64,000 bases of DNA from Halobellus rarus. GTDB taxonomy: Archaea > Halobacteriota > Halobacteria > Halobacteriales > Haloferacaceae. The notes beneath the pieces are model-generated. The model was not told the DNA's origin. It saw only the letters and a program-made list of their open reading frames with translations, and ran no database searches. Shown here in pieces: positions 29,875-48,384 of this stretch (within the stretch, counting starts at the first letter, position 1; each line of letters begins with the position of its first letter). Where the stretch lies: positions 434,001 to 498,000 of the forward strand of contig NZ_JANHDI010000001.1 of the NCBI RefSeq assembly GCF_024494595.1. Reading direction: 5' to 3'. A program made the position numbers and the translations under genes.

Positions 29875-29966
29875 AGCTCCGGATCGGCCGTCCACTCTGC
29901 GAGTCGTTCGGAGAACGAAGCGAACCGCTCGCGCCCGGACGACGCCGGTTCCCGCTCTGCAGTCAC
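29871..29966 (-). CDS. 31-codon ORF coupled between cbiX2 and cbiA
   Basis: A GTG-started frame of 31 codons overlaps the cbiX2 stop by 4 bases (GTGA, 29963-29966) and the cbiA start by 4 bases (ATGA, 29871-29874). It exactly fills the gap between two enzymes. The product is hydrophilic and mildly acidic, with a probable amphipathic helix RERFASFSERLAEWTADPEL. The two coupling overlaps are what argues for translation. It could be a real small protein, a leftover domain of a neighbour, or a translational bridge that keeps ribosomes moving from cbiX2 into cbiA. Confidence 0.5.
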   Translation of the reverse strand: MTAEREPASSGRERFASFSERLAEWTADPEL

Positions 29967-30767: not shown

Positions 30768-30799
30768 CAAGTTTGATTTATCTATCCCAATTTGGGTTG
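30768..30799. promoter_or_regulatory. putative tandem operator upstream of cbiX2
   Basis: Two 12-bp sites start exactly 20 bp apart: CAAGTTTGATTT (30768-30779) and CAATTTGGGTTG (30788-30799). Both fit CAA-N6-TT[G/T]. They lie 17-28 and 37-48 bases before the cbiX2 start, over the expected TATA/transcription-start region. The first is centred on the perfect inverted repeat ATCAA-GT-TTGAT. The same arrangement occurs before cbtB and cbiT. Confidence 0.6.
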
Positions 30800-32420: not shown

Positions 32421-35400
32421 CGCTCGGCACCTCCGGGGCGTCCGCGCTTCCCGCACGCGCTTCGAGGTCGCCGTCGACGCGGAGGTTGAGGTTCCGGAGC
32501 CGATCGGCCGTCGCCTCGTCGGCCTCCCACAGCCCTCGGCCGATGGCTTCGAGCAGGGTGTCGGTGATGCTCTCTAAGGCCCACGGGTTCACGTCCCGCA
32601 GCCACTCCTGTCGGTCCTCGTCGAAGGCGTACCTCTCGGCGACGTCGCGCCAGAGGGTGTCGCTCACGACGCCGGTGGTCGCGTCCCAGCCGAGGACGAC
32701 GTCGACGGTCGTCGAGAGGTCGCCGGCCCCCTTGTAGTCGTGTTCCTCCATACTGTCGAGCCAGTCGGGGTTGAGCACGCGGGCGCGCATCGCTTTCCTG
32801 ACCTTCTCCTCGTTCGTGTAGACGGAGACGTTGTCGGGATCGCTGGAGTCACCGACGTAGGAGGCCGGCTCCTCGCCCGATATCTCCGAGACGGCGGTGA
32901 TGAACCCGCCGTGGAACGCGTACCAATCGGAGCTGTCGAACTCGTCCTGCTCGGCGGTGTCCTCGATCTTGACCGTGGCGTCGACGCCGCTCAGCCGGCG
33001 CTCGAAGGCGTCGTGCGCCTCGGAGACGCGGCCGCGACTCCCCAGAGCGTATCCGCCCCACTGGACGTACACGTCGGCCAGATCGGATCGATCCTCCCAG
33101 TTGCCCTCGTCGACGGCCTTGTTCGTGCCCGCGCCGTACCCGCCGGGGCGGGTCGTGAACACGCGGTGTCTGGCGGCCGTCTCGGGATCGTCGACGCCGG
33201 CCTCATCGAGCCGTTCGGTCTCCTCCTCGACGTGCTTCTTCACGTAGTTCATCTCGTGTGGCTCGTCGAGGTCGACGACCGCGTCGACGGCGTCGTGGAC
33301 GACGCTCGCGGCCTGGGGGAAGGCGTCGCGGAACAGCCCCGAGACGCGGGTCGTGACGTCGATGCGCGGCCGGTCGAGTTCGTCGAGGGGAATCGGCGAG
33401 ACGCCGTCGACGCGCCCGGCGTCGGTCCACTCGGGTTCGACGCCCATCAGCGCGAGCACCTGCGCGATGGTCTCGCCGCGGGTCCGCACGGTGGGCGTTC
33501 CCCACGCGACCACGCCGACCGCTTCGGGATACTCGCCGTGCTCGTCGGCGTGGCGGTCGGCGGTGCCCTCCGCGACCTCCCGGCCGACGCGCCAGGCGCT
33601 CCGCGCGGGCACCTTCCTGGGATCGAGGGTGTAGAAGTTCCGCGCGGTCGGCAGCAGGTCGACTCCCCCCCGTGTGGGCGCGCCGCTGCCGCCCGGCGGC
33701 ACGTACTCGCCGGCCAGTGCGTCCGCGGTTCGCGGGATCTCCTCGGACGCGCCCCGCACGCGCGGGGCCACCGCCTCGCAGATGAAATTCAGCGCCGCCC
33801 GGAGGTCCTCGTGCGCCCCCGACTGCACCCGCGCGTCCCCGAGCGGGTCGATATCGCCGGCTTCGCCGGCTGCTCGAGACATCTCCGATGCCTCGCTGTC
33901 GACGACGAGCAGATTCAGGTTCACCTCGTCGTCCGGCCCGGCGTCGACCGCCGACGCCGGCGGATCGAAGTCGTGCTCGGCCAGCGCCCGCACGAGGTCG
34001 AGGCTCGTCTCGTACACCTCGTCGGCCGCCTCCGAGAGCGTCATCCCGAGTTCCTCGTCGTAGTGGCCGGGGTCGTCGAGCATCCGCTCGTAGTCGACGC
34101 CGAGCGCGCCGGCGACGCTCTCTCGGAGGCTCGGTCCGCCGGAATTCTCCAGTCGCGTAAGCGCGACCAGGTACTCGGTCAACCGCTCGCCCTCGGGCGG
34201 TTCGCCCATCGTGTGGAGCCCCATCCGGATCTGGGTCGTCTTCACGTCCGTCAGGTACGCGTGGACGCGCTCGACGAGTTCGTCGATGCCGACCTCGTCG
34301 CCCTCGACTTCGCCCTCGGCAAGGGTTGTCCCCGCCTCGCCTCGCGGTTCGCGCTGCTCACCGCTCGGCCGATCCGAGGCGCTCCGCGCCTCGCGCTCCG
34401 GTCCGCGGAGTTCGGCCTTCTCGTCGATCTCGCCACCGATTCCCAACTCCACCGCGAGATCGAGGTCGTCGACCGTCTCGCGGAGGAGGGCTTCGAGGTG
34501 CTCGCCGTCGTCGGTACGGGCGTCCTCCATGCCGGCCTCGCGGTACCGGTCGGCGAGTTCCTCCAACTCGGACAGCTCGTCGTAGGTCCCGGCGTTACGC
34601 ATCACCGGCGTGAGGTAGTCGACGACCGCGGCGTATGAGCGCCGCTTCGCCTGCGTCCCCTCGCCGGGGTTGTTGACGATGTACGGATAGACGTTCGGGA
34701 CGTCGTCGATGAGTTGGTCCGGAGCGCTCTCGCCGTTCAGTCCGACCGTCTTGCCGGGGAGCCACTCCAGGCTGCCGTGCGTGCCGAGGTGGACGACGGC
34801 GTCGGCCTCGAAGGCGTTCCGGAGCCAGCCGTAGAACGCCACGTAGTCGTGGGGCGGCTGGAGGTCCGAGTCGTGGTAGACCTTCGAGGGGTCCACCCCG
34901 AACCCGCGCGGCGGCTGGACGGTGACGAGGACGTTCCCGAACTCCACGCCCGGGATCGCGAACGGTCGGTCGGGGGCCTCGCCCCACTCGTCGAGGACGT
35001 TCTCCCGAAAGCGCTCGTCAGTCGCCTCGAACCACTCGCGGTACTGGTCCGGAGCGACGACGTCGACGCTCAGGTCGCGGACGTCCTCGGGGGCGACCCA
35101 GCGGTCGTCGAGCGTCAGCTGGGCGGTCAGTTCCTCGATGAGTTCCTGACCGGTATCGGGGAGCGGCGTCGATCCCTCGGCTGCCTCGCCCAGGTCGTAT
35201 CCCCGCCCGTCCAGTTCGTCGAGCAGATTGACGGTGCTCTCGGGGCTGTCGAGCCCGAAGGCGGTGCCGATGCCGTCGTCGCTCGGCGGGTAGTTGTGCA
35301 GGACGACCGCGACGTCCTTCTCCGCGTTCGGGACGTGTCGCAGCCGCGCCCAGTTGACCGCGAGCCGCGCGGCGTGGTCGACGCGGTCGTCGATCGGGAA

Positions 35401-36432
35401 GTGCTGCTTCGGGGCGCTCCCGATGCCCGCCTCGTCGTCGGTGCGCTCCTTCCCGCTGATCGGGTGGGTGACGACGTTTCCGTCGAACTCCGGGAGCGCG
35501 ACCGAGAGGGCGAGCTCGAAGCCCATCACGCCCGTGTCGCTCGACTCGTATCGGGGGCGAGAGCGCATCGTCGTGACGGTCTGGATCACTGGCACGCCCA
35601 GTCTGTCCAGGAAGACGTCCTCCGCGCGCTCTCCCTCGCCGTCCGCCGCTCGCCCGCGCTCGTCCATCGACAGCGAGAACATAAATGAAGAGAGGACGGC
35701 GTCGACGAGGGGCTCCCCGCCGTCGAGGAGCCACTCCTCGGTCACCCGCTCGGCGTCCCACCGCTCGTCGGTGTCGGTCGCCGGGTTACAGAAGATCGGC
35801 AGGGCGTCCGCGCCCTGGGCCTCGACGGCCCGCACCTGCGCGTCGACGTAGCGCGTGTTCTCGTGGGTCCAGTGAGACTCGTAGAACCAGATCGCGACGG
35901 TCGGCGTCGACGGATCGAGTTCCGACACTAGCTCTTCGTACGATGCGCCGGGGTGGTCGGGGTGGTAGACGCCTTCGGTCGGGAGCGCCACGGGATCGTC
36001 GTACTCGCAGTCGACTCCGCCGTCCTCGCGACCGACGTCTCCGTACTCGTCGGCGAGAAAGCGGAGGCAGTTCGCGACGTTGGCGGTCCCGCCTCGCTCT
36101 AAGTACTCGTAGACGCGGTCGCGGTCGTCCGCGGCGACGGACGTGTCGTCGAGGGCGTAAGCGTCCCCGGTCGATTTGACGACGAGCGGAACGCCGGCGT
36201 CGCGCAGCCGCTCGACGGCGTGGTCGTACCCCGGCATACTCTCCTCTGCGCCGTGGAGCCAGAAGACCGCCGCCGTTGCCTCCTTGATCTCGTCGAGGAA
36301 CGCGTCGACGTCGGTCCCGTCTTCGAGGTCGCTCTCCGAACGGACCACCAGGTCGACGTCCGTCCGGGTCGCGGCGCGCTGGACGGCCCCGAGTTCGTTT
36401 TCGGTCGCGGTGTACAGGCCGATTGTTGGCAT
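32410..36432 (-). CDS. cobN: cobaltochelatase subunit CobN
   Basis: A 1340-residue ATP-dependent metal chelatase large subunit, homologous to BchH/ChlH. It holds the tetrapyrrole and inserts cobalt. The family motif HLGTHGSLEWLPGKTVGLN (about 545-563), the NNPGEGTQAKRRSYA block and the C-terminal WGGYALGSRGR and DYKGAGDLSTTVDVVLGWDA blocks are intact. An Asp/Glu-rich insert with EREARSASDRPSGEQREPR-like repeats lies mid-protein (about 680-715). It normally acts with AAA+ and VWA subunits; here these are one fused gene, chlID, divergent by 34 bases. The operator-like site at 36462-36473 lies 30-41 bases upstream. Confidence 0.96.
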   Translation of the reverse strand: MPTIGLYTATENELGAVQRAATRTDVDLVVRSESDLEDGTDVDAFLDEIKEATAAVFWLHGAEESMPGYDHAVERLRDAGVPLVVKSTGDAYALDDTSVAADDRDRVYEYLERGGTANVANCLRFLADEYGDVGREDGGVDCEYDDPVALPTEGVYHPDHPGASYEELVSELDPSTPTVAIWFYESHWTHENTRYVDAQVRAVEAQGADALPIFCNPATDTDERWDAERVTEEWLLDGGEPLVDAVLSSFMFSLSMDERGRAADGEGERAEDVFLDRLGVPVIQTVTTMRSRPRYESSDTGVMGFELALSVALPEFDGNVVTHPISGKERTDDEAGIGSAPKQHFPIDDRVDHAARLAVNWARLRHVPNAEKDVAVVLHNYPPSDDGIGTAFGLDSPESTVNLLDELDGRGYDLGEAAEGSTPLPDTGQELIEELTAQLTLDDRWVAPEDVRDLSVDVVAPDQYREWFEATDERFRENVLDEWGEAPDRPFAIPGVEFGNVLVTVQPPRGFGVDPSKVYHDSDLQPPHDYVAFYGWLRNAFEADAVVHLGTHGSLEWLPGKTVGLNGESAPDQLIDDVPNVYPYIVNNPGEGTQAKRRSYAAVVDYLTPVMRNAGTYDELSELEELADRYREAGMEDARTDDGEHLEALLRETVDDLDLAVELGIGGEIDEKAELRGPEREARSASDRPSGEQREPRGEAGTTLAEGEVEGDEVGIDELVERVHAYLTDVKTTQIRMGLHTMGEPPEGERLTEYLVALTRLENSGGPSLRESVAGALGVDYERMLDDPGHYDEELGMTLSEAADEVYETSLDLVRALAEHDFDPPASAVDAGPDDEVNLNLLVVDSEASEMSRAAGEAGDIDPLGDARVQSGAHEDLRAALNFICEAVAPRVRGASEEIPRTADALAGEYVPPGGSGAPTRGGVDLLPTARNFYTLDPRKVPARSAWRVGREVAEGTADRHADEHGEYPEAVGVVAWGTPTVRTRGETIAQVLALMGVEPEWTDAGRVDGVSPIPLDELDRPRIDVTTRVSGLFRDAFPQAASVVHDAVDAVVDLDEPHEMNYVKKHVEEETERLDEAGVDDPETAARHRVFTTRPGGYGAGTNKAVDEGNWEDRSDLADVYVQWGGYALGSRGRVSEAHDAFERRLSGVDATVKIEDTAEQDEFDSSDWYAFHGGFITAVSEISGEEPASYVGDSSDPDNVSVYTNEEKVRKAMRARVLNPDWLDSMEEHDYKGAGDLSTTVDVVLGWDATTGVVSDTLWRDVAERYAFDEDRQEWLRDVNPWALESITDTLLEAIGRGLWEADEATADRLRNLNLRVDGDLEARAGSADAPEVPSDDD

Positions 36433-36441
36433 AACGTTGTT

Positions 36442-36473
36442 AAACCTCTATTGCGCTAATTCAAGTATGATTG
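36442..36473. promoter_or_regulatory. putative operator between cobN and chlID
   Basis: CAAGTATGATTG at 36462-36473 is the core of the perfect inverted repeat ATTCAA-N6-TTGAAT (36459-36476), which covers the chlID start codon. A weak partner AAACCTCTATTG starts exactly 20 bp away at 36442. The gap between the two divergent starts is only 34 bases, so one protein bound here would affect both genes. Confidence 0.55.
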
Positions 36474-38731
36474 AATACAGTGAACGCAAAAAAGCTTCGC
36501 ACGACAGGGAGTCGGGGCTCTCTTTCTCCGGGATCGTCGGTCAGGAGGAGCTCAAGCGAGCTTTACTCGCCGTCGCGGCGAACGACGGACTGGACGGCCT
36601 CTTGATCCGGGGCGAGAAGGGGACGGCGAAGTCGACGGCGGTGCGGGCGCTGACGGACCTGCTTCCCCGACAGGCGGTCGTCGCGGACTGTCCGTACGGC
36701 TGTCCGCCCGACGCGCCCGAACGCCAGTGCGAGCGGTGTCGCGAGCGGACCGATCCGCCGAGCACCGAGCGGCCGGTCCCGCTCGTGACGCTCCCGCTGG
36801 GCGCGACCCGCGAGCGGGTCGTCGGGACGCTCTCGGTGTCGGACGCCCTGGCCGGCGAGTACGAGTTCGATCCCGGCCTTCTCGCCCGCGCGAACCGCGG
36901 CATCCTCTACGTCGACGAGGTGAACCTCCTCGACGACCACCTCGTCGACGTGCTGCTAGACGCGGCGGCGAGCGGGGTCAACCGGGTCGAGCGCGACGGC
37001 GTCAGCGTCTCTCATCCGGCCGATTTCACGCTCGTCGGCACGATGAACCCCGAGGAGGGCGATCTCCGTCCCCAGTTGCGGGACCGCTTCGCGCTCCAGG
37101 CGACGGTGACGGCCTGCGAGGGCGTCGATCAACGAGTCAGGGTTCTGAACCGAGCGATCGGCTCGGGGGGCCACGACGCTCCAACGTCGGAGCCGCCGGA
37201 CGGGGGAGACAGGACGGCGGGGTCCTCGAACGCGGAAGACGGGTCGGCGACGCGACGGGAACAGCTTCGGACAGCCCGCGAACTGCTCCCGGGGGTCGAA
37301 CTGTCGACGGAGTTCAAGCGAGAGATCGCGGAGCTGTGCCGGGACTCGGGGACGGAGGGACACCGCGCCGATATCGCCACGGCGCGCGCCGCGATGACCT
37401 TCGCCGCTCTCGACGGACGTTCGAAGGTGATCGAACCCGACGTCCGGCAGGCGGCGGAGCTCGCGCTTCCGCATCGACTCCGATCACGCCCGTTCGAGGA
37501 CGCGCCCGATCCAGAGGAGCTCGTCGACGACCACTTCGACGGCGAGGGTGAGGGGGGCCACGAGGATGAGGGTGAAGCGGACGGAGAACACTCCGAAGAC
37601 GGAGCGGGAAGCGAAGCAGCGGGCGAGACCGGCGACCCGATAGACGGGAGCGACGACTCGACGGGAGAGACCGAAGGCCCCGGTGGTCGAGACGGCGGAG
37701 ACGCGTCGGAGTCATCGACGGACCCTGAATCGTTGGAGGGGAGAAACGACCCCGATGAGGCGAGAGAGGGACCGCCATCGGAGGCTCGAAGCGGCGGCAG
37801 CGACCTCAATGGCACAGGATCATCGGCGGCGAACGGGGATCTGGAAACGGAATCCGACAGTTCCGACGCGGGCGCCGACGGTGAAGGCCCGGCGGACGAC
37901 CCCGACGATGCGACGGAGGCCAGTCCGCTCGTTCCGGGGCAGTCGCCCGTCGAGATCGGAGCGGGGCGCGCTCCCGACCTGACCGCGCCGAAGGCCGTCG
38001 AGGGGGCGAGGACGAGCGGTGGTACCCGGGCGCAGACCGGTCCGGACGTCGATAGTGAGGGCGTCCGGATACGGACTCAGCGTACCGACTCAGCGGCGGA
38101 CGTCGACGCCGCCGCCTCGGTCCGCGCGGCGGCCGCCCGCGGGGCGTCGTCCGTCGAGTCGCGGGACCTCCGGCAGTCGGTCCGCCGGAGCGACGCTGCC
38201 GCCCTGGTGCTCTTCGTCGTGGACGCCAGCGCGTCGATGCGGCCGGCGATGCGCGCAGCGAAGGGAGCCGTGCTCGAACTGCTGAAGGACGCCTACCGGC
38301 AGCGCGACGAGGTCGGGTTCGTCGCGTTCGCCGGCGACGGGGCGGACGTCCTCCTCCCGCCCACGAACAGCGTCACGCTCGCGGCGCGACACCTCAAGGA
38401 GCTGCCGACCGGCGACCGGACCCCGCTCCCCGCGGGGCTCCGGACCGCGGGCGACGTCCTCGACCGAGCCGAACCGGCCGCCGCCGTCGTCGTCGTGGTG
38501 ACAGACGGCCGCGCGAACGTCGCCGAGGGGAGCCCGGTCGGTGAGACCCGCGCGGCCGCTCGGCGACTGGCCGAACTCGGCGCGCACGTGATCGTCGTCG
38601 ACGCGGGCGGCGGCGGGAAAGCCGGGGTGTCCGGGCTAATCGCCGACGAAACAGACGGGACGCGCGTTCCGCTTTCCGCGCTCTCCGCCGAGCGGATCGA
38701 CGCGGCCGTCGGTGCCGCGCGCGAAAGCTGA
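36467..38731 (+). CDS. chlID: fused AAA+/VWA chelatase subunit (ChlI-ChlD type, partner of CobN)
   Basis: A 754-residue fusion of the ATPase and VWA subunits of magnesium/cobalt chelatases. The AAA+ domain (about 10-345) has Walker A GEKGTAKS (49-56), a four-Cys patch CPYGC..QCERC (about 76-92) and Walker B ILYVDEVNLL (146-155). A D/E/S/G-rich linker (about 355-525) with hardly any structure joins it to the VWA domain (about 575-750), which has the MIDAS motif DASAS (586-590) and VVTDGRANV. It powers metal insertion by CobN. The start ATG 36467 lies within an operator-like palindrome and suggests a leaderless message. Confidence 0.92.
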   Translation: MIEYSERKKASHDRESGLSFSGIVGQEELKRALLAVAANDGLDGLLIRGEKGTAKSTAVRALTDLLPRQAVVADCPYGCPPDAPERQCERCRERTDPPSTERPVPLVTLPLGATRERVVGTLSVSDALAGEYEFDPGLLARANRGILYVDEVNLLDDHLVDVLLDAAASGVNRVERDGVSVSHPADFTLVGTMNPEEGDLRPQLRDRFALQATVTACEGVDQRVRVLNRAIGSGGHDAPTSEPPDGGDRTAGSSNAEDGSATRREQLRTARELLPGVELSTEFKREIAELCRDSGTEGHRADIATARAAMTFAALDGRSKVIEPDVRQAAELALPHRLRSRPFEDAPDPEELVDDHFDGEGEGGHEDEGEADGEHSEDGAGSEAAGETGDPIDGSDDSTGETEGPGGRDGGDASESSTDPESLEGRNDPDEAREGPPSEARSGGSDLNGTGSSAANGDLETESDSSDAGADGEGPADDPDDATEASPLVPGQSPVEIGAGRAPDLTAPKAVEGARTSGGTRAQTGPDVDSEGVRIRTQRTDSAADVDAAASVRAAAARGASSVESRDLRQSVRRSDAAALVLFVVDASASMRPAMRAAKGAVLELLKDAYRQRDEVGFVAFAGDGADVLLPPTNSVTLAARHLKELPTGDRTPLPAGLRTAGDVLDRAEPAAAVVVVVTDGRANVAEGSPVGETRAAARRLAELGAHVIVVDAGGGGKAGVSGLIADETDGTRVPLSALSAERIDAAVGAARES

Positions 38732-38754: not shown

Positions 38755-38786
38755 CAATCTAACTTGTCTTTGTCCAAGTGTGATTT
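38755..38786. promoter_or_regulatory. putative tandem operator upstream of cbtB
   Basis: Two sites start exactly 20 bp apart: CAATCTAACTTG (38755-38766, which reads CAAGTTAGATTG on the other strand) and CAAGTGTGATTT (38775-38786). They end 4 bases before the cbtB start. The first is nearly identical to the site at 48373-48384 before cbiT. Confidence 0.6.
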
Positions 38787-38789: not shown

Positions 38790-38978
38790 ATGCCGGCAAC
38801 CACCGACACCGTCCACGGCCGAATCGAAGGGGCCCGAATCGAACTGACGCCGACGCAGGCCGCCGTCGGGTTCGCACTCGTCGCAGCCCTCGGGTTCGCG
38901 CTCCTGTTCGTTCAGGAACCGATGCTGCACGACTCGATGCACAACTTCCGTCACGCCGCGGGCATCACCTGCCACTGA
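38790..38978 (+). CDS. cbtB: cobalt transporter subunit CbtB
   Basis: A 62-residue single-helix membrane protein (helix about 24-42) followed by a metal-binding tail with His47, His51, His55 and a terminal Cys61-His62. This is the CbtB layout. CbtA and CbtB form a proposed cobalt uptake system found beside B12 genes and often under B12 control. Two bases separate it from cbtA. The two operator-like sites lie immediately upstream. Confidence 0.93.
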   Translation: MPATTDTVHGRIEGARIELTPTQAAVGFALVAALGFALLFVQEPMLHDSMHNFRHAAGITCH

Positions 38979-38980
38979 CG

Positions 38981-39820
38981 ATGCTCACTTCCCATCTGAA
39001 GCGGGGCGTGAAAGCCGGCGTCGTCGCCGGACTGGCGTTCGGCCTCCTCCTCGCGCTGGTCGCCAACCCGCTCGTCGCGTTCGCCGACGAACTCGGCCAC
39101 GAGGGCGGCGATATCGACGGCGGGATTGCCGAGTCCGGGACCGGCGAGCACCACGAGACAGACGGTGGTCACCACCACGGGGCGGACGGCGGCCACCACG
39201 GCGGAGCAGGTGACGGACCCCACGAGAGCGTCGTCTCCTCGACGGTGACAAACGGCGTGAGTGTCCTCTCCGGCGTGCTCTGGGGGATCCTCCTCGGCGG
39301 CGTCGTCTTCGGTTTCGCCTTCTACCTCCTCGAACCCGCGATTCCGGGGACCGAGGGTACGAAGAGCTACCTCCTGGCGGCGGCCGGGTTCGTCACCGTC
39401 TCGGGCGCGCCGTGGCTCGTCCTCCCTCCGCGGCCGCCCGGGGTCTCGCAATCGCTGCCCACGGAGACCCGAACGCTCCTCTACGGCGGGATGATGGCCG
39501 TCGGCGCGCTGGCCTGTCTGCTCTCCGGATACGCGTACCAGCGGCTCCGGGAGCGACGCGGACGGGGGGCCGCCGTCCTCGCGGCCGCGCTCCCGTTCGG
39601 CCTCCTGGCCGTCCCCACTGCGTTCGCCCCCGCAAACTCGGTCGAGAGCGCGCTTCCCCCCGACCTGGCGACGGGGCTCGTCGGGATGACCGTGTTCGGC
39701 CAGGCGCTGCTGTGGGTGCTCCTCGCGGGCGCCCACGCGCGGCTCAGTCATCACTCGGTCGAAGACCGTCCCTCCGACGTCGCCAGCGACCGTTCCGACG
39801 TCTCTGTCACGGCGGACTGA
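38981..39820 (+). CDS. cbtA: cobalt transporter subunit CbtA
   Basis: A 279-residue polytopic membrane protein with about five or six helices. The loop after the first helix is very His-rich (three HH or HHH clusters within about residues 50-77), a likely cobalt-binding segment facing outside. It follows cbtB directly and its stop overlaps the next ATG as TGATG (39818-39822). Together they would supply cobalt to the chelatases encoded around them. Confidence 0.92.
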   Translation: MLTSHLKRGVKAGVVAGLAFGLLLALVANPLVAFADELGHEGGDIDGGIAESGTGEHHETDGGHHHGADGGHHGGAGDGPHESVVSSTVTNGVSVLSGVLWGILLGGVVFGFAFYLLEPAIPGTEGTKSYLLAAAGFVTVSGAPWLVLPPRPPGVSQSLPTETRTLLYGGMMAVGALACLLSGYAYQRLRERRGRGAAVLAAALPFGLLAVPTAFAPANSVESALPPDLATGLVGMTVFGQALLWVLLAGAHARLSHHSVEDRPSDVASDRSDVSVTAD

Positions 39821-40179: not shown

Positions 40180-40551
40180 CTACTCTTCGACGGGGAACGT
40201 CTCGTGCAGCACGTCGTGGGCCTCGCCCAGTCCCTCGAGGACGCTTTCTCCCTGATCGGTCAGCCGGTGCACCGCCCGTTCGGCGTCGCGGACGGCCACG
40301 AGCCGTCCGCGGACGTAGCCGTACTCCGGATCCTCGGCGTCGGTCGCGGCGACTTCCGCTTCGAGGTCCACGAGCGCCGCGTCGAGATGTCGCTCGATCT
40401 CCGAGAGCGTCTCCGCGTTCGCGAGGGCCTCGATCGGGCCGTCCAGACGGCCCTCCAGTTCCTTCTCCGCGTGTTCGCGCACGCTTCGGTCTTCGGTGCC
40501 GAGCACGTTCATCAGTCCGAGTCGTAGGGCTTCGATTTCGTAACAGCTCAT
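40180..40551 (-). CDS. DUF3209 family protein of the cobalamin cluster
   Basis: A 123-residue helical protein that begins MSCYEIEALRLGLMNVLG, the DUF3209 start. It has a conserved Cys3 and an acidic helical remainder. DUF3209 genes occur in haloarchaeal cobalamin clusters, but I know of no assigned reaction. Its ATG overlaps the cbiX1 stop as TAATG, so it is the last gene of the long cbiT operon. The position beside cbiX1 suggests work in cobalt or electron delivery. Confidence 0.8.
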   Translation of the reverse strand: MSCYEIEALRLGLMNVLGTEDRSVREHAEKELEGRLDGPIEALANAETLSEIERHLDAALVDLEAEVAATDAEDPEYGYVRGRLVAVRDAERAVHRLTDQGESVLEGLGEAHDVLHETFPVEE

Positions 40552-41795
40552 TATAGTATTTGACCGACGAGGTCCGAGACGATGCGGTCCCGATCGAGGT
40601 GGGACGAGACGATCCGCTCCGCGTCGCTCCCGTCGACGTCGCCGTACCAGACGCCGTCTGGGTAGACGGCCACCATCGGGCCGTCTCCGCAGCGCCCGAG
40701 ACACGACGAACGCGTGATCCGGGCGTCGCAGGCGTCGGAGTCGCGTGCGGCCTGCCGCAACCCTTCGAGCACGGCCGGCGCGCCGTCGGCGGCGCAGGTC
40801 TGGTTCGTACAGACCGCGACGTGCTTCGCCGGCGCGTCGTGCGCGTGGGGCTCGTCGTCTATGTCGTCGCGGTCGGCGTGTGACTCCTGGTGGGTGAGCG
40901 CGCGCAGCGTCGCTCTCGCGCCGCCGACGTCCTCCTCGTAGCCGTCGATTTCGACCTTGTACTTGCAGGTGTCACACGACATATCGACGCTCTCCGTCCG
41001 GGCCTCCTGCCAGCGGTCGCCGAGGACGTCCAAGAGCCGGTTGTCGGTTCCCAGCGGATCGCCGGCGGCCGCGTCGACGTACGGGTACTCGCCGTCGAAC
41101 TCGGCGGTCCCCTCGCGGATCCGGCCGGTGAGGACGCCGTCGCCCAGCATGTACGGGAGCACGACGACGGCGTCCGGTCGGTGTTTGGCGGTCGCGTGCA
41201 GCGTCTCCTCCAACCGCGGCTCGGTGACCCCGATGAACGACGTCTCCACGCGGTCGAAGGCGCGCCCCTCGTACAGCAACCGGGCGAGTTTGTGCGCGTC
41301 GGCGTTGGCGTCCGGGTCACTGGAGCCGCGTGCGCAAAGTACGACCGCGACCTCGTCGGTCTCGCGGTCGACGCCTAACTCGGACTCGACGGCCGCCGCC
41401 CGGTCGTCGAGCAGGTCGACGAGCGCGGGGTGGACCCCGAGGTGCGCGCCGTTGTGGACGGTGACGCCGGGGTGATCGCTCCTGGCTCGCTGGACCGCCA
41501 GCGGGACGTCGTTCTTGACGTGGCTCGCGGCGAACAGCGACAGTTGGACGACGGTGATCCGCGAGACCGTCGCCGCGAGCCCCGCGATCGCGTCGGGGAT
41601 AGAGGGCTTCGCGAGTTCCAGAAAGCCGGCATCGACCGGAAGACCGAGCCGGCCCTCCAGGTCGGCCGCGAGGGCCCGGACCTGTTCGTTCGACTTCTCG
41701 CGGCGGGAGCCGTGGCCCACCAGCAGCACGGCCTCGTCGTCGAGCAGACTGCTGTCGTCTCGCGCGCCCGGAGCGGATTTCGTGTTCGTGGTCAT
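40551..41795 (-). CDS. cbiX1: sirohydrochlorin cobaltochelatase CbiX fused to Cys/His linker and [2Fe-2S] domain
   Basis: A 414-residue fusion. Residues 20-130 form the first CbiX domain with GHGSRREKS (His28) and FAASHVKND (His92), the two catalytic His. Residues 145-265 form a second CbiX-like half. A linker holds CDTC (274-277) and a His-rich stretch (about 302-325). The C-terminal domain (about 325-390) is a thioredoxin-like [2Fe-2S] ferredoxin with Cys329, Cys334, Cys365 and Cys369. The enzyme inserts cobalt early, into sirohydrochlorin. The extra domains suggest cobalt delivery and redox control within one chain. Confidence 0.93.
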   Translation of the reverse strand: MTTNTKSAPGARDDSSLLDDEAVLLVGHGSRREKSNEQVRALAADLEGRLGLPVDAGFLELAKPSIPDAIAGLAATVSRITVVQLSLFAASHVKNDVPLAVQRARSDHPGVTVHNGAHLGVHPALVDLLDDRAAAVESELGVDRETDEVAVVLCARGSSDPDANADAHKLARLLYEGRAFDRVETSFIGVTEPRLEETLHATAKHRPDAVVVLPYMLGDGVLTGRIREGTAEFDGEYPYVDAAAGDPLGTDNRLLDVLGDRWQEARTESVDMSCDTCKYKVEIDGYEEDVGGARATLRALTHQESHADRDDIDDEPHAHDAPAKHVAVCTNQTCAADGAPAVLEGLRQAARDSDACDARITRSSCLGRCGDGPMVAVYPDGVWYGDVDGSDAERIVSSHLDRDRIVSDLVGQIL

Positions 41796-42508
41796 CTGGA
41801 GAGCGTCCCCACCTCGCTAGCCGTGGCGCGTTCGACGCTCCGGCGGAGTTTTTCCCGGCGCGCCGCCGAGTACAGCCCGGAGTCGTCGCTGCCGGCGTAG
41901 GTCCACCGCGCGAAGGCCGCGATGTCTGCGTCGTCGGCAAGCCCGAACCAGTAGCCGCCCGAAGACGTCTCGGAGAGATCGTCGGTCGGGACGTCGGGCG
42001 CTGCGGAAGCGAGTAGCGACCGGACCGCCCGGAGCAGCGCCTCGTCGTCGTGGACGAACGAGACGCCGACCGACTCCGAGGACTCCCGGAAGCAGACGGT
42101 GCCGCAGGCTTCGAGGACGCCTCGAACGAGTTGCGGTCGGTGATCGGCGAACGCGCCGAAACGATAGCCGCCGGGCTGGCCGTCGATCGGCAGCCCGAGG
42201 GCCGCGCCCGCACGCTCGGCGGGCGCGCCGAACACTTGCAACTCGTACTCGTCCTCGAAGCGGACGATCGAGGCGTCGTGTGCCGACTCGCGGGCCGCGA
42301 CCCGGTGGTCGTGATCGACGCGGACGGTCCCGGCGACCGCGGCCAGCGCGTCGGCCGATGTCTCATCCTCCACACGGACGGTCACGCAGTCGCGCGTCAG
42401 TTCGCCGTCGCCGGCGACGCGCCCCCAGAAGTACGCCGTCGCTGGCGTCGCCGCGAGCAGGTCCTCGACGGGATCCGGCGTCCCCGACTCTCGCTCCGTG
42501 CTACTCAT
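41792..42508 (-). CDS. LAGLIDADG-fold-like protein in the cobalamin operon
   Basis: A 238-residue protein with a layout I read as a two-repeat LAGLIDADG fold. A helix ATAYFWGRVAGDGEL (23-37) resembles the first LAGLIDADG helix. RPQLVRGVLEACGTVCF (124-140) resembles the second, but lacks the acidic residue. RWTYAGSDDSGLYSAARREK (201-220) resembles the C-terminal LY...RK block of homing endonucleases. One catalytic acid is therefore missing, which suggests a protein that binds but does not cut DNA or has a new role. It overlaps cbiX1 by 4 bases and the ferredoxin gene upstream by 8, so it belongs firmly to the operon. No function is known to me. Confidence 0.7.
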   Translation of the reverse strand: MSSTERESGTPDPVEDLLAATPATAYFWGRVAGDGELTRDCVTVRVEDETSADALAAVAGTVRVDHDHRVAARESAHDASIVRFEDEYELQVFGAPAERAGAALGLPIDGQPGGYRFGAFADHRPQLVRGVLEACGTVCFRESSESVGVSFVHDDEALLRAVRSLLASAAPDVPTDDLSETSSGGYWFGLADDADIAAFARWTYAGSDDSGLYSAARREKLRRSVERATASEVGTLSR

Positions 42509-42809
42509 TTTCTGCCCCCGGTAGCACGTCGATGGCATCGACCGGACAGGCTCGGGCGGCCTGCCTGGCGTCTTCCAGGCGCTCGTCGGCGAACGAGACG
42601 AGGAGTTCGCCGCTCTCGTCAGCCTCACCGGCGGCGACGTCGCTTCCGTCACCGCCGCCCCGTCCACCGGCGACGGTAGCCGGGCTGTCTGACGCCTCGA
42701 CTGTCGCCAACCCGTCCGACGCCTCGACGAACCGGTCGTCGCGCACGAGGCAGGCGAAGACGCCCTCGCAGGCCTCACGGTCGAGACGAACTCGGTACTC
42801 AGTAGTCAT
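42501..42809 (-). CDS. ferredoxin ([3Fe-4S]/[4Fe-4S] type) of the cobalamin operon
   Basis: A 102-residue ferredoxin-like protein with Cys14 and Cys20 in REACEGVFACLV and Cys88 in ACPVDAI. Only three Cys are present, which fits a [3Fe-4S] cluster or a [4Fe-4S] cluster with a non-Cys ligand. Between the halves lies a low-complexity insert (about 30-65). It overlaps cbiH1 by 11 bases and the LAGLIDADG-like gene by 8. It probably provides electrons to a reductive step of the pathway. Confidence 0.82.
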   Translation of the reverse strand: MTTEYRVRLDREACEGVFACLVRDDRFVEASDGLATVEASDSPATVAGGRGGGDGSDVAAGEADESGELLVSFADERLEDARQAARACPVDAIDVLPGAENE

Positions 42810-43899
42810 ACTTGGACTCGTAGCCGCGGGGGGTCACCATCCGATCGTCCCAGACGTACGTCTCCTCGTTCCCGACGAGGATGGTCGTCGTCATATCGAC
42901 GAGGTCGGTCTCGCCGAGTCCCTCTAACTCCCCGAGTTCGACGATGTCCACCGCCTCGTCGTCGCGACCCGCACCGTGCACGATCCCGACCGGCGTGTCC
43001 GCCGGGCGGTGTTCCAAGAGGATTTCACAGCACTTCCGGAAGTTCTCCCGGCGCTTGCGACTCCAGGGGTTGTAGATCGCGATGGTGAACCCCTCCTTCG
43101 CGGCGGCGTGGAGCCGCGACTCGATGGTCGGCATCGACGTCAGGTGATCCGACAGCGAGATGCTGACGGTGTCGTTCACGAGCGGCGCGCCCAGGCGCGC
43201 TCCGCAGGACTGGGCGGCCGGGACGCCGGGGACGACCTCGAAGTCCACCATACTCGCGGTCGCGCCCTTCGATTCCAGAATCTCCAGCGCCAGTCCGGCC
43301 AGCGCGTAGACGTTCGGGTCCCCGCTTCCGATAATAGCGACGTCGTTGCCGGCGAGCGCCCGATCGATCGCCTCCTCGGTCCGTGTCACCTCGCCGCACA
43401 TCGGCGTGTCGTACAGCTCCTCGGCCGAGTCGGTGACCTCCTGCGGGAGGAGATCGACGTACGTGGTGTAGCCGACGACGTGCTCGGCCTCCAAGAGCGC
43501 CCCGCGGGCGCGCTGGGTCATCCCCTCGGGCTGTCCGGGTCCGAGTCCGACCGCGACGAGGCGTCCGGGGTCGGCCTCGAAGTCGTCGACGGTGGATTCG
43601 ACCTTCTCGTCGGTCGTCGCTCGCTTCGATCCGCCGCACTTCGAGTCGGACGGGGAGTCGGATCCGGACGCCAGGTCGGAGCCCGAAGCCCCGCAGGCCG
43701 ATTCGTTCTCGTCGATCGAGGTGGACGCCCCGCACTTCGACCCGGAACTGGTCTGGGTCACGGCGTCGGCCGCACTCGAATCGGTCGACGCGCCGCAGGT
43801 CGTTTCGGTGTCTGTACTCGGCTCTGTGCCTGTACTCGGCTCTGTGTCTGTACTCGGCTCTGTGTCTGTACTCGTCTCGGTGGTTTCGTCAGTGCTCAT
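42799..43899 (-). CDS. cbiH1: cobalt-precorrin-3 (C17)-methyltransferase, copy 1, with Cys-repeat N-terminus
   Basis: A 366-residue tetrapyrrole methylase that methylates C17 and contracts the ring. The enzyme domain (about 112-366) has AVGLGPGQPEGMTQRA, GSGDPNVYALAG, VVPGVPAAQSCGARLGAP and NPWSRKRRENF, which are CbiH features. Ahead of it is a unique 110-residue extension with TDTEPS repeats and four CG(A/G)S motifs at Cys35, Cys56, Cys69 and Cys88. It follows cbiH2 after 2 bases. The N-terminal Cys array may bind cobalt or an Fe-S cluster. Confidence 0.9.
   Translation of the reverse strand: MSTDETTETSTDTEPSTDTEPSTGTEPSTDTETTCGASTDSSAADAVTQTSSGSKCGASTSIDENESACGASGSDLASGSDSPSDSKCGGSKRATTDEKVESTVDDFEADPGRLVAVGLGPGQPEGMTQRARGALLEAEHVVGYTTYVDLLPQEVTDSAEELYDTPMCGEVTRTEEAIDRALAGNDVAIIGSGDPNVYALAGLALEILESKGATASMVDFEVVPGVPAAQSCGARLGAPLVNDTVSISLSDHLTSMPTIESRLHAAAKEGFTIAIYNPWSRKRRENFRKCCEILLEHRPADTPVGIVHGAGRDDEAVDIVELGELEGLGETDLVDMTTTILVGNEETYVWDDRMVTPRGYESKYDY
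43811..43882 (-). repeat. four tandem 18-bp coding repeats in the cbiH1 N-terminus
   Basis: Near-identical copies of TCTGTACTCGGCTCTGTG start at 43811, 43829, 43847 and 43865. They encode the STDTEP repeats of cbiH1 on the minus strand, and each copy is in frame. Confidence 0.85.
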
Positions 43900-43901
43900 T
43901 G

Positions 43902-44951
43902 TCAGAAGTCGTCGACGTCACGCCCGCCGCGCGGGGTGACGAGGTGCTTTTTGTACTCGTTCTCCCAGACCGTCGTCTCGTGGGTACCGATCAGGATGGA
44001 CGTCCCCATCCCGCCGACCTCGTCCTCGTGCCCTTCGGCCTCGCCGAGGGTGGTGATCGTGTGGGTCTCGTCCTCCAGGTTCCGGCCGGCGTCGCCCCTG
44101 CCGGCGTCGTTGAAAATCCCCACCGGAACGTCGTCGGCGCGTTCCTCCCGCACCACGTCGATGGCGCGCTGGTAGTCGCGCCAGCAGTTGTACAGGACGA
44201 TCACGAACCCGCTGATCGCCCCCGCGCGCAGTTTCTCCTCGATCTCGTCCCACCCGCGCCACTTGTCCGACAGCGAGACGGTGCAGAAGTCGTTCGACAG
44301 CGGCGCGCCGAGGTTCGCCGCGCCGCCGAGCGCCGCCGTCACGCCGGGGACGACTTCGATCGGAACGTCGTCGGCGTCCTCGGCCTCGGCCATCGTGAAC
44401 AGCAGGTCGCTCTTGCCGTAGACGTTCGGATCGCCGCCGGAGACGTGGGCGACGTCCTCGCCCGCGCGGACGCGCTCGAACGCCTCGCGGGCCAGTTCGA
44501 TCTGCCGACCCATCGACGAGCGGACGAGCGTCTGGCGGGTGCCGTTGGGACGTTCGAGGACGGTTCCCGACTCGTTTCCCGCCGTCGTCATCGCGTCCGC
44601 GCCGTCCTTTGTCGCCGCTCCCCCGTCGGGCGCGGCGTCCCCCGTCCCCGCCGTATCGACCTCCGCGCTCTCCGGCGGGAGCGTCCCGTCGCGTCGGAGA
44701 AACTCCTGATAGAGGTTCGAGGCGATCACGCAGTCGGCGGTCGCGACGACGTCCTTCGCCCGCTGGGTCATCGCGTGGGGCAGTCCGGGACCGATGCCGA
44801 CGACGTAGAGCGTCCCCAGCGAGTCGCCGTTGCCGTCGTCGCCGTCCCGGACCGCGTCATCGGCGCTGTCGCCCCCGTTCGGGGCCGTGTCATCGCTGTC
44901 CCCGCCGCTCGGGTCCGCGCCGCCGGCAGCGGAGCCGTCCATCCCCGCCAT
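43902..44951 (-). CDS. cbiH2: cobalt-precorrin-3 (C17)-methyltransferase, copy 2
   Basis: A 349-residue paralogue of cbiH1. It has VVGIGPGLPHAMTQRAKDV (about 50-68), GGDPNVYGKSDLL, VVPGVTAALGGAANLGAP and NDFCTVSLSDKW. The Asp/Gly leader (1-45) and an Ala/Thr/Gly-rich insert (about 95-130) are low complexity. Both CbiH-type enzymes follow each other in the operon, so one may methylate and the other catalyse ring contraction or a different position. Copies in tandem are common in haloarchaeal clusters. Confidence 0.88.
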   Translation of the reverse strand: MAGMDGSAAGGADPSGGDSDDTAPNGGDSADDAVRDGDDGNGDSLGTLYVVGIGPGLPHAMTQRAKDVVATADCVIASNLYQEFLRRDGTLPPESAEVDTAGTGDAAPDGGAATKDGADAMTTAGNESGTVLERPNGTRQTLVRSSMGRQIELAREAFERVRAGEDVAHVSGGDPNVYGKSDLLFTMAEAEDADDVPIEVVPGVTAALGGAANLGAPLSNDFCTVSLSDKWRGWDEIEEKLRAGAISGFVIVLYNCWRDYQRAIDVVREERADDVPVGIFNDAGRGDAGRNLEDETHTITTLGEAEGHEDEVGGMGTSILIGTHETTVWENEYKKHLVTPRGGRDVDDF

Positions 44952-44952
44952 C

Positions 44953-45975
44953 TCACTGCCCCACCGCGACGGTCACGGCGTCGTCGAAGCGCTCTTTTTC
45001 CCTTACGAGGTCGTGCTCGCGACCGCCCGCGATGGCCGACGCCTCGGCGATTCCGGGCCAGCCGATGAGCTCTTTCGACCGCGAGGGCGAGGGCCCCTCG
45101 AACGCGTCGAGGGTCTCCTTCTCGAACAGGACGACGCCGGCACCGATCTCCCGGGCGGCCTCGTAGAGGCCCTCCTCGCCCTCCTTTCGGGTGCCGGTCG
45201 CGACGAAGTCGACGTCGGAAAAGTCCGCTCCGAGATCGTCGAGGGCGGTCGCCCAGGCGTCGAGCACCTGGGACTTCTTCACCCCCGAGACGGTCCCGGT
45301 TCCGAGGACGACTCCGTCGTCCGCGTTCCGCTCGAGAACGGTCACGTCGTCGTCGACGAGGACGGCACGGGGGCCGTCCAGGCGCGCGACGGGACCGAGT
45401 TCCCCGTTCAGGACGGCGAGGTTCGTCGCGACCGTGGAGTCGCCGTTGACGACGTGTGCGTCCAGCGCCTTCGCCTTGCTCTCGACGCCCTGTTTGCCCG
45501 CGGCCTCGCTGGCGGTCGTCATCGCGGGCACCGCGCCCAACTGCGAGAGGTCACCCGCGACTTGGTTCGCGCCGTGATGACCCCCCGTGATCGGGATGGC
45601 CCAGGTGAGTTCCTCGTCGACGACGACGATCGCGGGGTCGTCCCACTTGTCGTCGAGCAGCGGCGCGGTCTTCCGCATCGCGATGCCGGAGGCCATCAAT
45701 CCGACGAAGCAGTCGTACTCGCCCCAGTGCTCGGCGAAGACGTCGCCGTGGTACTCGATTATGTCCACCCGATCGTAGCCGTCACCGATCCCCGCCGCGA
45801 TCTCCTCGGCGGTGTCGAGTTTCCGCTCGAAACTGACGATCGCGATCTCCTCGGCCACCTCCCCGTCGGAGTCGGGCGTGGAACAGTGGCCGTTCGATCC
45901 GCCCGATGCGTTTGATTCGTCCGGTTCGGTCTCTTTGCCGTCCGTCGTGTCCGCGTCGGTAGTGTCGGTGCTCAT
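44953..45975 (-). CDS. cbiG: cobalt-precorrin-5A hydrolase
   Basis: A 340-residue enzyme that opens the lactone of cobalt-precorrin-5A and releases acetaldehyde. It shows the CbiG signature GLMASGIAMRKTAPLL (92-107), ITGGHHGANQ and the C-terminal domain with GTGTVSGVKKSQVL and ATGTRKEGEEGL. A Thr/Asp/Ser-rich leader carries a single Cys in SNGHCSTPDSD. It lies between cbiF and cbiH2 with gaps of 1-3 bases. Confidence 0.94.
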   Translation of the reverse strand: MSTDTTDADTTDGKETEPDESNASGGSNGHCSTPDSDGEVAEEIAIVSFERKLDTAEEIAAGIGDGYDRVDIIEYHGDVFAEHWGEYDCFVGLMASGIAMRKTAPLLDDKWDDPAIVVVDEELTWAIPITGGHHGANQVAGDLSQLGAVPAMTTASEAAGKQGVESKAKALDAHVVNGDSTVATNLAVLNGELGPVARLDGPRAVLVDDDVTVLERNADDGVVLGTGTVSGVKKSQVLDAWATALDDLGADFSDVDFVATGTRKEGEEGLYEAAREIGAGVVLFEKETLDAFEGPSPSRSKELIGWPGIAEASAIAGGREHDLVREKERFDDAVTVAVGQ

Positions 45976-45978
45976 CGT

Positions 45979-46845
45979 TCAGTCGTCGGCCTCGCTCTCG
46001 GTCCCGCCTCGGTTCGCCCAGCCGTCGTACAGGTACGAGCGCTCGTAGCCCGCCTTCCGCGCGGCGTCGCCGATGACGACGAGCGCGGAGGCGCGGTAGC
46101 CCGCCGCCTCCAGCCGCCCGCCGATCGTCCCGATCGTCCCCTCGATGACCTCCTCGTCCGGCCACGACGCGTGATAGACGACGGCGACCGGTGTATCGGG
46201 ATCGTGGCCGTCCTCGAGGAGCCGATCCATCGTCTCGCCGACCGCGTGGGTACCGAGGTAGACGCAAGTCGTCACGTCGCCCATCCCGACGAACTCGCCG
46301 ATGTGGTCGTCCTCGGGATCGAGCGTCTTCCCCTGCGGGCGCGTGAACGCGACGTGGTTCGACACGCCGTTCAGGGTGAGCTGGGTCCGGAGCGTCGCGC
46401 TGGCGGCGAACGCCGAGGTCACCCCCGGGACGATGTAGGTCGGAATGCCCTCGTATTCCAGCGCGTCCATCTGCTCTACGGCCGCTCCGTAAATCGCTGG
46501 ATCGCCGCTGTGGAGTCGGACCACGCTCCGGCCGGACTCGTGGGCGTCCCGCATCAGCGGCACGAGTTCTTCCAGGTCCTTGCCGATGCTCGACACCTGC
46601 TCGGCGTCCTCGCAGTGCTCCTCCAGAAGTTCGCTGTTGACCAGCGACCCGGCGTGAACCACGAGATCCGCGGACTCGACGAGTTCCTTTCCGGTGACGG
46701 TGAGCAGCCCCGGATCGCCCGGGCCGGCCCCGACGAACGGGATCCCCTCCTGCACCTCGCCGGCGGTCCGCGCGTCGATTCGGGGGTCGCGTTCGCTCGC
46801 TCGCGCGGCCGACTCCGCGTCGATGGCGTCCTGCGGGTCGGTCAT
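45979..46845 (-). CDS. cbiF: cobalt-precorrin-4 (C11)-methyltransferase
   Basis: A 288-residue tetrapyrrole methylase that adds the C11 methyl. Motifs are FVGAGPGDPGLLTVTGKEL, VRLHSGDPAIYGAAVEQM, YIVPGVTSAFAASATLRTQL and HVAFTRPQGKT, which identify CbiF/CobM. The ATG overlaps the cbiL stop by 4 bases and it is followed by cbiG after 3 bases. Confidence 0.95.
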   Translation of the reverse strand: MTDPQDAIDAESAARASERDPRIDARTAGEVQEGIPFVGAGPGDPGLLTVTGKELVESADLVVHAGSLVNSELLEEHCEDAEQVSSIGKDLEELVPLMRDAHESGRSVVRLHSGDPAIYGAAVEQMDALEYEGIPTYIVPGVTSAFAASATLRTQLTLNGVSNHVAFTRPQGKTLDPEDDHIGEFVGMGDVTTCVYLGTHAVGETMDRLLEDGHDPDTPVAVVYHASWPDEEVIEGTIGTIGGRLEAAGYRASALVVIGDAARKAGYERSYLYDGWANRGGTESEADD

Positions 46846-47705
46846 CGCGACGATCCCCCCCGGACCCCGTCACCGCAGGCCTCGCTCTCGGCGCGCTCGA
46901 CCGACGCGAGGTCGGAGGCATCCTCAACCCCCGGGGTCGATCCTACTCCCCCTTCGGTGTGCGCCGTCGACTCCACCCCTCCGTCGGTCTGCGCCGCGGG
47001 CTCGGGATCGGTCTCCGGTTCGCCGCCGAACGCCGCGGTGGCCGGCTGCAGATCCAGCCCGCGCTTCTCCGCGTACGCGAGGGTGTAGTAATCGCGGTCG
47101 GCGAGGGCCTCGGGATCGTCGGTCACGACGGTCTCGCCCTCATCCATGTACAGCCTGCGGCCGTACACGACGTCGTATCCGGCGTCGACGAGTCCCTCGT
47201 GAGTTGCGGGGACGTCGGTGACTTTGAACAGGACCAGTCGGTCCGGACCGGTGGGGGAGGCCCCGCGGGCGGCCTCGCGGAGCGCGATACTCGCCCCCGA
47301 TGCGATTTCGACGCCGAGAGCGGTGGTGAAGGCCGTCACGGCGCTCACTCCGGGGACGACCTCGACGTCGACGTCCGGGTGGAACGCCGCGAGCGTCCGA
47401 CGCAGGTGACCGAACGTCGAGTACACGTTCGGATCGCCGAGCGTGACGAACGCCGCGGTGCCGTCGCGGGCTCGCGGTGCGATCTCCGCGGCGGCCGCCT
47501 TCCAGGCGCGCCGGAGCTCGTCCTCGTCTCGGGTCATCGGGAAGTCGACGTCGCCGATCCGCGCCTCGGGGACGTGCTCGGTCGCCACGGAGCGAGAGAG
47601 GCGTCCGGGCGAGTACGCGACGTCGGCCCGTTCGAGGACGCGACGGCCGCGGACGGTCACGAGGTCGGCGTCGCCGGGGCCGAGTCCGACGCCGTACAGG
47701 GTCAT
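46842..47705 (-). CDS. cbiL: cobalt-precorrin-2 (C20)-methyltransferase
   Basis: A 287-residue tetrapyrrole methylase for the first committed methylation after cobalt insertion. The enzyme part (1-230) has YGVGLGPGDADLVTVRGRRV, VTLGDPNVYSTFGHLRR, VVPGVSAVTAFTTAL and LVLFKVTDVP. The C-terminal 55 residues are a low-complexity Thr/Gly/Glu tail with VESTAHTEGGVGST units. It overlaps cbiT upstream and cbiF downstream by 4 bases. Confidence 0.94.
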   Translation of the reverse strand: MTLYGVGLGPGDADLVTVRGRRVLERADVAYSPGRLSRSVATEHVPEARIGDVDFPMTRDEDELRRAWKAAAAEIAPRARDGTAAFVTLGDPNVYSTFGHLRRTLAAFHPDVDVEVVPGVSAVTAFTTALGVEIASGASIALREAARGASPTGPDRLVLFKVTDVPATHEGLVDAGYDVVYGRRLYMDEGETVVTDDPEALADRDYYTLAYAEKRGLDLQPATAAFGGEPETDPEPAAQTDGGVESTAHTEGGVGSTPGVEDASDLASVERAESEACGDGVRGGSSR

Positions 47706-48322
47706 CGCTGTCCCCCGTCGACGCCGCGCGACGGCGACCGCCGCGAATCGGTGCGGCGCTCCCCGCCGTCGGCTGCGGCCTCCTTCGCGCCGCCGACGAG
47801 CATATACACCGGGTTTTCGGAGTCGAAACTCGTCGCCCCGGCGAGTTCGTAGCCGTGGCTCACCTGGAACTGGACCACCTCGTCGAGGAGGCCACGTTCA
47901 CGGAAGGCCTCGGTGGCCGCCCCCGCGACCTCCAGCCGCGAGACGTTCATCACGACGCGGTCGACCCGGTGCTCGACCGCGTGGTCGAGCACGGCCTCGT
48001 AGTTTCGACTGCCGCCGAGGAACAGGGCGTCGGCGTCCGTCGGGAGCCCCTCCGGCGCTTCGGACTCCCGCAGTTCCACGTTGTCTGCGGCGTCGTTGGC
48101 TGCGAGGTTCTTTCTGCTCGTTTCGACCCGCTCGGGCTTCCGTTCCAGTGCGGTGACCCGCCCGGCGCGCCGTGCCGCTTCGACGGTGACCGCGCCGGTG
48201 CACGAACCGACCTCGGCGAAGTGATCGGTCGGTTCGAGATCGAGTTTGCTGAGAAGGACGGCCCGAACCTCGGGTTTCGTCGGACCGGCCTTCGCGTCGT
48301 GTGGAAGCGAGACGTGCGCCAT
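47702..48322 (-). CDS. cbiT: cobalt-precorrin-6B (C15)-methyltransferase, decarboxylating
   Basis: A 206-residue Rossmann methyltransferase that methylates C15 and decarboxylates the C12 acetate. It begins MAHVSLPHDAKAGPTKPEVR, has motif I FAEVGSCTGAVTVEAAR, and VDRVVMNVSRLEV. ATG 48322 is preferred over a TTG four codons upstream. It leads the ten-gene operon. Its upstream region holds a tandem operator and the divergent regulator gene. Confidence 0.92.
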   Translation of the reverse strand: MAHVSLPHDAKAGPTKPEVRAVLLSKLDLEPTDHFAEVGSCTGAVTVEAARRAGRVTALERKPERVETSRKNLAANDAADNVELRESEAPEGLPTDADALFLGGSRNYEAVLDHAVEHRVDRVVMNVSRLEVAGAATEAFRERGLLDEVVQFQVSHGYELAGATSFDSENPVYMLVGGAKEAAADGGERRTDSRRSPSRGVDGGQR

Positions 48323-48352: not shown

Positions 48353-48384
48353 CAATTTTGATTGTTTTAGAAAAAGTTAGATTG
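48353..48384. promoter_or_regulatory. putative tandem operator between cbiT and the divergent regulator
   Basis: Two sites start exactly 20 bp apart: CAATTTTGATTG (48353-48364), centre of the perfect inverted repeat AAAACAA-N6-TTGTTTT, and AAAGTTAGATTG (48373-48384). They lie 31-42 and 51-62 bases before the cbiT start, over its expected TATA/BRE region, and about 87-118 bases before the regulator start. This is the most AT-rich stretch nearby. Confidence 0.65.

Follow-up and report, generated by a model that had tools for sequence, protein, structure and literature searches.

A 32-bp DNA element composed of two 12-bp half-sites that start exactly 20 bp apart precedes the cobalamin (B12) operons of Halobellus rarus and recurs at B12-related genes of haloarchaea and some methanogens. 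The computational analysis establishes the element itself, its spacing, its target genes, its position relative to promoters and its conservation. The protein that binds it, the stacking of dimers, the ligand and repression are inferred. In the absence of binding, expression or ligand data, we consider it probable that this element is the operator of a conserved archaeal B12 regulon, bound by a DUF7839 protein and subjected to corrinoid-dependent repression. Somewhat less firmly, we lean towards a broader view, in which an ancient protein-based control of cobalamin, combining DUF7839, a new corrinoid-sensor domain and a fixed tandem operator, extends within Halobacteriota from methanogens to haloarchaea.

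A tandem element at the B12 operons of Halobellus rarus

The window, i.e. the whole 64-kb stretch of DNA that was analysed, carries four tandem pairs of half-sites, all located where a preliminary description of this DNA had placed them and all with a spacing of exactly 20 bp (Table 1). There is one element per operon start, the one located between cobN and chlID being common to these two divergent genes. The half-site consensus proposed at that time, CAA-N6-TT[G/T], fits six of the eight half-sites; those at 36442 and 48373 start with AAA on the plus strand and correspond to CAA-N6-TTT when read on the minus strand. Because of these two half-sites, a consensus that accommodates the whole set has to be written MAA-N6-TTK, a motif identical to its reverse complement. 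The complete element thus reads MAA-N6-TTK, an 8-bp spacer usually with a central TA, and MAA-N6-TTK again, and forms a quasi-dyad built from two palindromes. Among 34 distinct copies, positions A2, A3, T10 and T11 of the half-site are fixed, as imposed by the construction of the search, and there is a preference for a pyrimidine at position 5 and a purine at position 8. The central TA, which was not imposed by the search, is found in about 90% of these copies.

Table 1. Elements and genes of the B12 cluster in the window (positions in the window)
Feature	Position	Strand	Remarks
Operator, 32 bp	30768..30799		Upstream of cbiX2-cbiA; half-sites start at 30768 and 30788
Operator, 32 bp	36442..36473		Between cobN (-) and chlID (+); half-sites start at 36442 and 36462; overlaps chlID ATG 36467
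Operator, 32 bp	38755..38786		Directly upstream of cbtB; half-sites start at 38755 and 38775; spacer without central TA
Operator, 32 bp	48353..48384		Between cbiT (-) and regulator gene (+); half-sites 48353-48364 and 48373-48384
cbiA, cobyrinic acid a,c-diamide synthase	28564..29874	-	NF010471, 2.9e-238; start ATG 29874
cbiX2	29963..30751	-	PF01903; start of cbiX2-cbiA operon
cobN	32410..36432	-	Followed by cbiC (31710-32456) and cbiE (30949-31713)
chlID, cobaltochelatase ATPase subunit	36467..38731	+	
cbtB (38790-38978) and cbtA (38981-39820)	38790..39820	+	PF09489, PF09490; proposed cobalt transporter
cbiL, cbiF, cbiG, cbiH1, cbiH2, unknown gene (41792-42778), cbiX-ferredoxin	40551..47705	-	Rest of cbi operon
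cbiT	47702..48322	-	TIGR02469; first gene of cbiT-cbiL-cbiF-cbiG-cbiH1-cbiH2-orf-cbiX operon
Candidate regulator, 271 aa	48471..49286	+	MarR_2 1.4e-8, DUF7839 4.7e-38 (Pfam)

No such pairs occur elsewhere in the window, as had been judged by eye: in a histogram of half-site spacings, 20 bp is found four times, and no other value up to 80 bp is found more than once. Peaks at 24 and 25 bp look like shifted readings of the cbiT element through an overlapping half-site match 4 bp off (e.g. 48349/48353). No pair was obtained in 100 simulations with a first-order Markov model based on the window. When the AT-rich 120-bp regions around the four elements were shuffled by mononucleotide, between 5e-5 and 2.5e-4 of the trials produced a pair.

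The preliminary description had called for a whole-genome search and had accepted that many equal pairs without any link to cobalt or B12 genes, or a lack of conservation in related genomes, would refute it. In the 3.66-Mb genome, MAA-N6-TTK-N8-MAA-N6-TTK occurs five times, always at B12 genes, vs no match for a reversed-pattern control. The fifth copy lies outside the window in a B12 import locus, between a btuF-like gene (TIGR04281) and btuC (NF007081), the latter being followed by a gene encoding a corrinoid ABC ATPase. In other genomes also, matches are almost all tied to cobalt or B12 genes, and both the sites and the 20-bp spacing are kept across many families. Since the pairs overlap TATA/BRE regions, they could be viewed as ordinary core-promoter sequences or chance AT-rich repeats, but the reversed pattern, with an identical base composition, hardly ever occurs, and the matches keep to a single metabolic theme and a single spacing. 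Chance or promoter composition is thus ruled out by the reversed-pattern controls, the genome-wide counts and the simulation, and we leave it practically no weight.

One gene of the cbi operon encodes a 328-aa protein without any NCBIfam match (41792-42778, minus strand). It is kept in other haloarchaeal clusters and is a candidate for a missing step of the cobalt-early pathway.

Target genes in haloarchaea and methanogens

The element with a TA core was found in 272 of 293 Halobacteriales genomes, with about 745 sites vs 9 control matches (sums tallied by hand). Most of the sites that were checked are located at genes of the cbi, cobN/chlID, cbtAB, cbiM and btu groups; in regions from several families, the element was found at cbiT, cbiG, cobN/chlID, cbtB, cbiX2, cbiE, btuF/btuC, cbiM and a tetrapyrrole methylase gene. 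At cbiT, the pair lies next to the regulator gene in Halobacterium (including H. salinarum DSM 3754, locus L250), Haloarcula, Halorubrum, Halorientalis and others, and the exact pair is retained in 29 of the 37 named loci where cbiT adjoins the regulator gene. The initial assignment of the pairs to cobalamin transcription units holds for these units and proves too narrow, since further targets include btuF/btuC (B12 import), cbiM (cobalt uptake), a B12-independent ribonucleotide reductase and, in methanogens, cbiA and cobN-like genes.

Some haloarchaea, as indicated by a directed search, carry a class I (B12-independent) nrdA gene. In 21 of 30 such loci, the element, matched at 11 or more of 12 key positions, lies within 220 bp upstream of this gene (shuffle frequencies 0-0.01). 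The nine other loci do not have the pair. Nearly all haloarchaeal genomes searched also encode a larger and distant homologue (about 1050 residues), which we take to be the B12-dependent class II enzyme. Class I nrdAB genes with the element upstream are found at L232:6241-10816 and also in L237, L096 and L118; in Halalkalicoccus-type genomes (Halalkalicoccus, L232, and relatives), they form an nrdA-nrdB-regulator operon with the element before nrdA. An operator common to genes of B12 synthesis, B12 import and a B12-independent isozyme meets, at the sequence level, what is expected from a B12-responsive regulon, and this predicted co-control is the signature of a regulon responding to B12 status. 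It also speaks against a cobalt sensor. The targets do include cobaltochelatase genes, cbtAB and cbiM, and the winged helix of the candidate regulator weakly matches metal-dependent regulators, so that sensing of cobalt rather than cobalamin would be conceivable, but genes for B12 uptake and for a B12-independent reductase make best sense under corrinoid sensing. We therefore regard cobalt sensing as quite improbable.

Across a set of 20 genomes mixing methanogens with other Halobacteriota, the pattern hardly exceeds the control; therefore, only tests at cbiA and at genus level were used for methanogens. One methanogen genus (g58) has 32 pairs vs 1 control match (hand-summed); among 19 sites fetched from it, 13 are located at cbiA and one at a cobN-like gene. 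In another family (f25), the element lies 9 bp upstream of cbiA. The region upstream of cbiA carries a pair in 9 of 30 cases from lineages bearing DUF7839 (shuffle frequency <0.02), in none of ten from a methanogen family devoid of DUF7839, and in none of ten further methanogens that do encode DUF7839, nine of them from family f19. A search of methanogen CobN-like genes gave pairs only in family f20 and in one f19 genome, the other f19 members having none.

Several of the methanogen elements (L156, L157, L162, L195, L196 and L409) precede large CobN-like genes whose products have an N-terminal signal-like sequence, which suggests a corrinoid- or cobalt-related surface function. In two methanogen genomes (L399 and L405, position 1501), the element is found before a gene encoding a putative winged-helix protein of 194 aa, possibly a second regulator.

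Candidate regulator and proposed mode of action

The gene across the element from cbiT encodes a protein with a MarR-like winged helix (residues ~17-75), a beta-rich middle domain and a DUF7839 domain (PF25211; 129.9 bits vs a curated cut-off of 27). The N-terminal winged helix matches MarR_2 and HTH_24, and MarR chains in Foldseek; over the whole length, only this HTH part aligns with MarR proteins (best TM-score by query 0.29) and the C-terminal domains differ. The AlphaFold model shows confident domains, with a pLDDT of 88.9 overall and 95.1 for the C-terminal 166 residues. Foldseek found no solved structure at E<0.001 for the C-terminal domains; their weak similarity in fold to a tetrapyrrole-methylase domain (3hh1, E=7e-3) can be taken as no more than a lead. 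Residues T48, Q50, A51 and S53 of the recognition helix are invariant across 49 homologues.

Of 148 Halobacteriota genomes, 116 encode DUF7839, nearly always as a single copy; it is also present in three named controls, Methanocaldococcus jannaschii, Methanosarcina acetivorans and Haloferax volcanii. Haloarchaea have two forms of the protein, which separate from each other in a FastTree tree, most genomes carrying one or the other. The first form is often linked to the B12 cluster and is ~54-81% identical to the window protein; the second is unlinked to it and ~43-50% identical. Both have the recognition helix T-x-QA[VI]S. Because of the recurrent adjacency, the shared phylogenetic range and this helix, the DUF7839 protein is most likely the binder of the element, although binding is inferred and no binding data are available. 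Many genomes have elements while their DUF7839 gene sits away from B12 genes, as would be the case if a different transcription factor bound the element and DUF7839 were a mere neighbour. However, the element and the DUF7839 gene are repeatedly neighbours both at cbiT and in nrdAB operons, DUF7839 is the obvious DNA-binding candidate shared by element-bearing haloarchaea and methanogens, and its recognition helix hardly varies. We hence judge the involvement of another factor unlikely.

In the window, the regulator gene starts ~86 nt from the element, which leaves autoregulation undecided. In Haloquadratum (L215:9878 and L217:9884), the element lies ~86 bp upstream of the regulator gene without any cbiT, a layout that hints at autoregulation. 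Halorubrum coriense has a second copy of the regulator gene (L266:8606-10771), with an element between this copy and a 404-aa ORF that belongs to no known family and is possibly in a wrong frame. In another genome, a divergent cobN-chlID-cbiE locus (L121:5687-12534) carries the element at 6478 and the regulator is encoded elsewhere.

Distances between the element and the ATG are near-constant for each gene: mostly 30 (±1) nt for cbiT (50 loci), 9 nt for cobN and -7 nt for chlID in most loci, 0-3 nt for cbtB (9 loci), 5-20 nt for cbiX2 (8 loci), 21-23 nt for btuF and 5-12 nt for btuC. In most of 37 cbiT loci, the proximal half-site CAACCAAAATTG adjoins a TATA box, TTTTA, at -30 to -26; it therefore overlaps the place where the BRE of a leaderless promoter would lie. 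The element spans about -4 to -41 at cobN, btuC and cbtB and covers the ATG at chlID, where it falls inside the second half-site, in agreement with the overlap with promoters or start codons reported previously. We infer from these positions the geometry expected for promoter occlusion.

One group of elements does not fit this scheme. In family f17, all 17 genomes have the element (16 exact copies, one with a single deviation), mostly without the central TA, before an operon encoding the methylmalonyl-CoA mutase small subunit and meaB (L362-L378 in f17; L117:4834-6380), and the exact element precedes this operon in none of 13 cases outside f17. Since the mutase is B12-dependent, these elements are not consistent with simple repression by a B12 co-repressor; promoter-dependent activation or demand-linked control is possible. 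The same operator and protein might indeed act as an activator or dual regulator that recruits TBP/TFB when B12 is lacking, only some promoters being blocked. This would suit the f17 operon better than repression, the position of the cbiT element just upstream of the TATA box is possible for archaeal activators, and a study of H. salinarum dynamics inferred a second, unidentified regulator of cob/cbi genes beside TrmB, modelled as an activator (PMC3794607). However, a protein bound to the element would block initiation at chlID, cobN, cbtB and btuC, where the element lies over the start codon or over positions -10 to -40. Activation thus remains an improbable reading that still deserves to be kept in mind.

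Under the repression that we favor, one DUF7839 homodimer would bind each 12-bp palindrome, and the two dimers would sit on the same face of DNA, two helical turns apart, meeting around the central TA. The C-terminal domains may hold a corrinoid, probably adenosylcobalamin, and the corrinoid-bound protein would occlude the BRE/TATA or the start site of leaderless promoters. Hence, when B12 is plentiful, the cell would switch off its synthesis of B12, its import of cobalt and B12, and its B12-independent ribonucleotide reductase; it would release them when B12 is short. Support for this reading as a whole, from operator to DUF7839 regulator, comes from the restriction of the genomic pairs to B12 genes, their presence in most Halobacteriales, the fixed ATG distances, the TATA abutment at cbiT, the nrdA elements and the nrdA-nrdB-regulator operon, the adjacency at cbiT, the distribution of DUF7839, the pairs of the methanogen genus and their absence upstream of cbiA in the methanogens lacking DUF7839. 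Against it stand the ten DUF7839-bearing methanogens without a cbiA pair, the f17 mutase operon and the class I nrdA loci without the pair; moreover, the less similar homologues encoded away from B12 genes must act where the cluster-linked form is absent.

Relationship to known regulatory systems

To our knowledge, archaea mostly lack a bacterial-type B12 riboswitch, and a protein B12 switch would fill this gap. If our interpretation is correct, the DUF7839 system does in Halobacteriota what B12 riboswitches do in bacteria, B12 status in archaea is linked to which ribonucleotide reductase they use, and an uncharacterised family present in most Halobacteriota gains a likely function. The analysis provides a precise operator, a candidate regulator and a list of targets, and H. 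salinarum is a tractable species for tests. The literature searched does not mention DUF7839; since subscription literature and RegPrecise were outside its scope, novelty is provisional.

The bacterial cobalamin riboswitch RF00174 governs the same genes, and in some bacteria its targets also comprise the B12-independent ribonucleotide reductase. It is an RNA element, whereas the signal of the window is a DNA dyad overlapping promoters; Rfam detected only a tRNA and no RF00174 match in the window, which agrees with the preliminary description. The candidate regulator shares with MarR-type repressors the winged-helix fold and a palindromic site near the promoter, and differs from them in having additional C-terminal domains and in the tandem layout, at a fixed 20-bp spacing, of its proposed operator. 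RbkR and ThiR are archaeal HTH proteins with a C-terminal sensor domain that repress vitamin pathways. The control proposed for the DUF7839 protein is similar, with an archaeal HTH and a C-terminal sensor-like domain acting on a vitamin pathway, but its C-terminal part consists of DUF7839 and a beta-rich domain. In regulators of the RbkR and ThiR type, the sensor domain derives from a pathway enzyme; for the DUF7839 protein, the weak tetrapyrrole-methylase match is a mere lead in this direction.

The available passages of a Haloferax annotation review cite work on the ThiN repressor and describe the cobalamin cluster, without discussing any regulator (PMC8305020). The H. salinarum dynamics study reported little evidence for a riboswitch (PMC3794607). 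TrmB affects the same cob/cbi genes in this species, but its site, TACT-N7-8-GAGTA, is absent from both strands of the window. In Pyrococcus, a 'CblR' cobalamin regulon has been predicted, its regulator being unknown (PMC10746257); like the regulon described here, it corresponds to a predicted transcriptional control of archaeal cobalamin genes.
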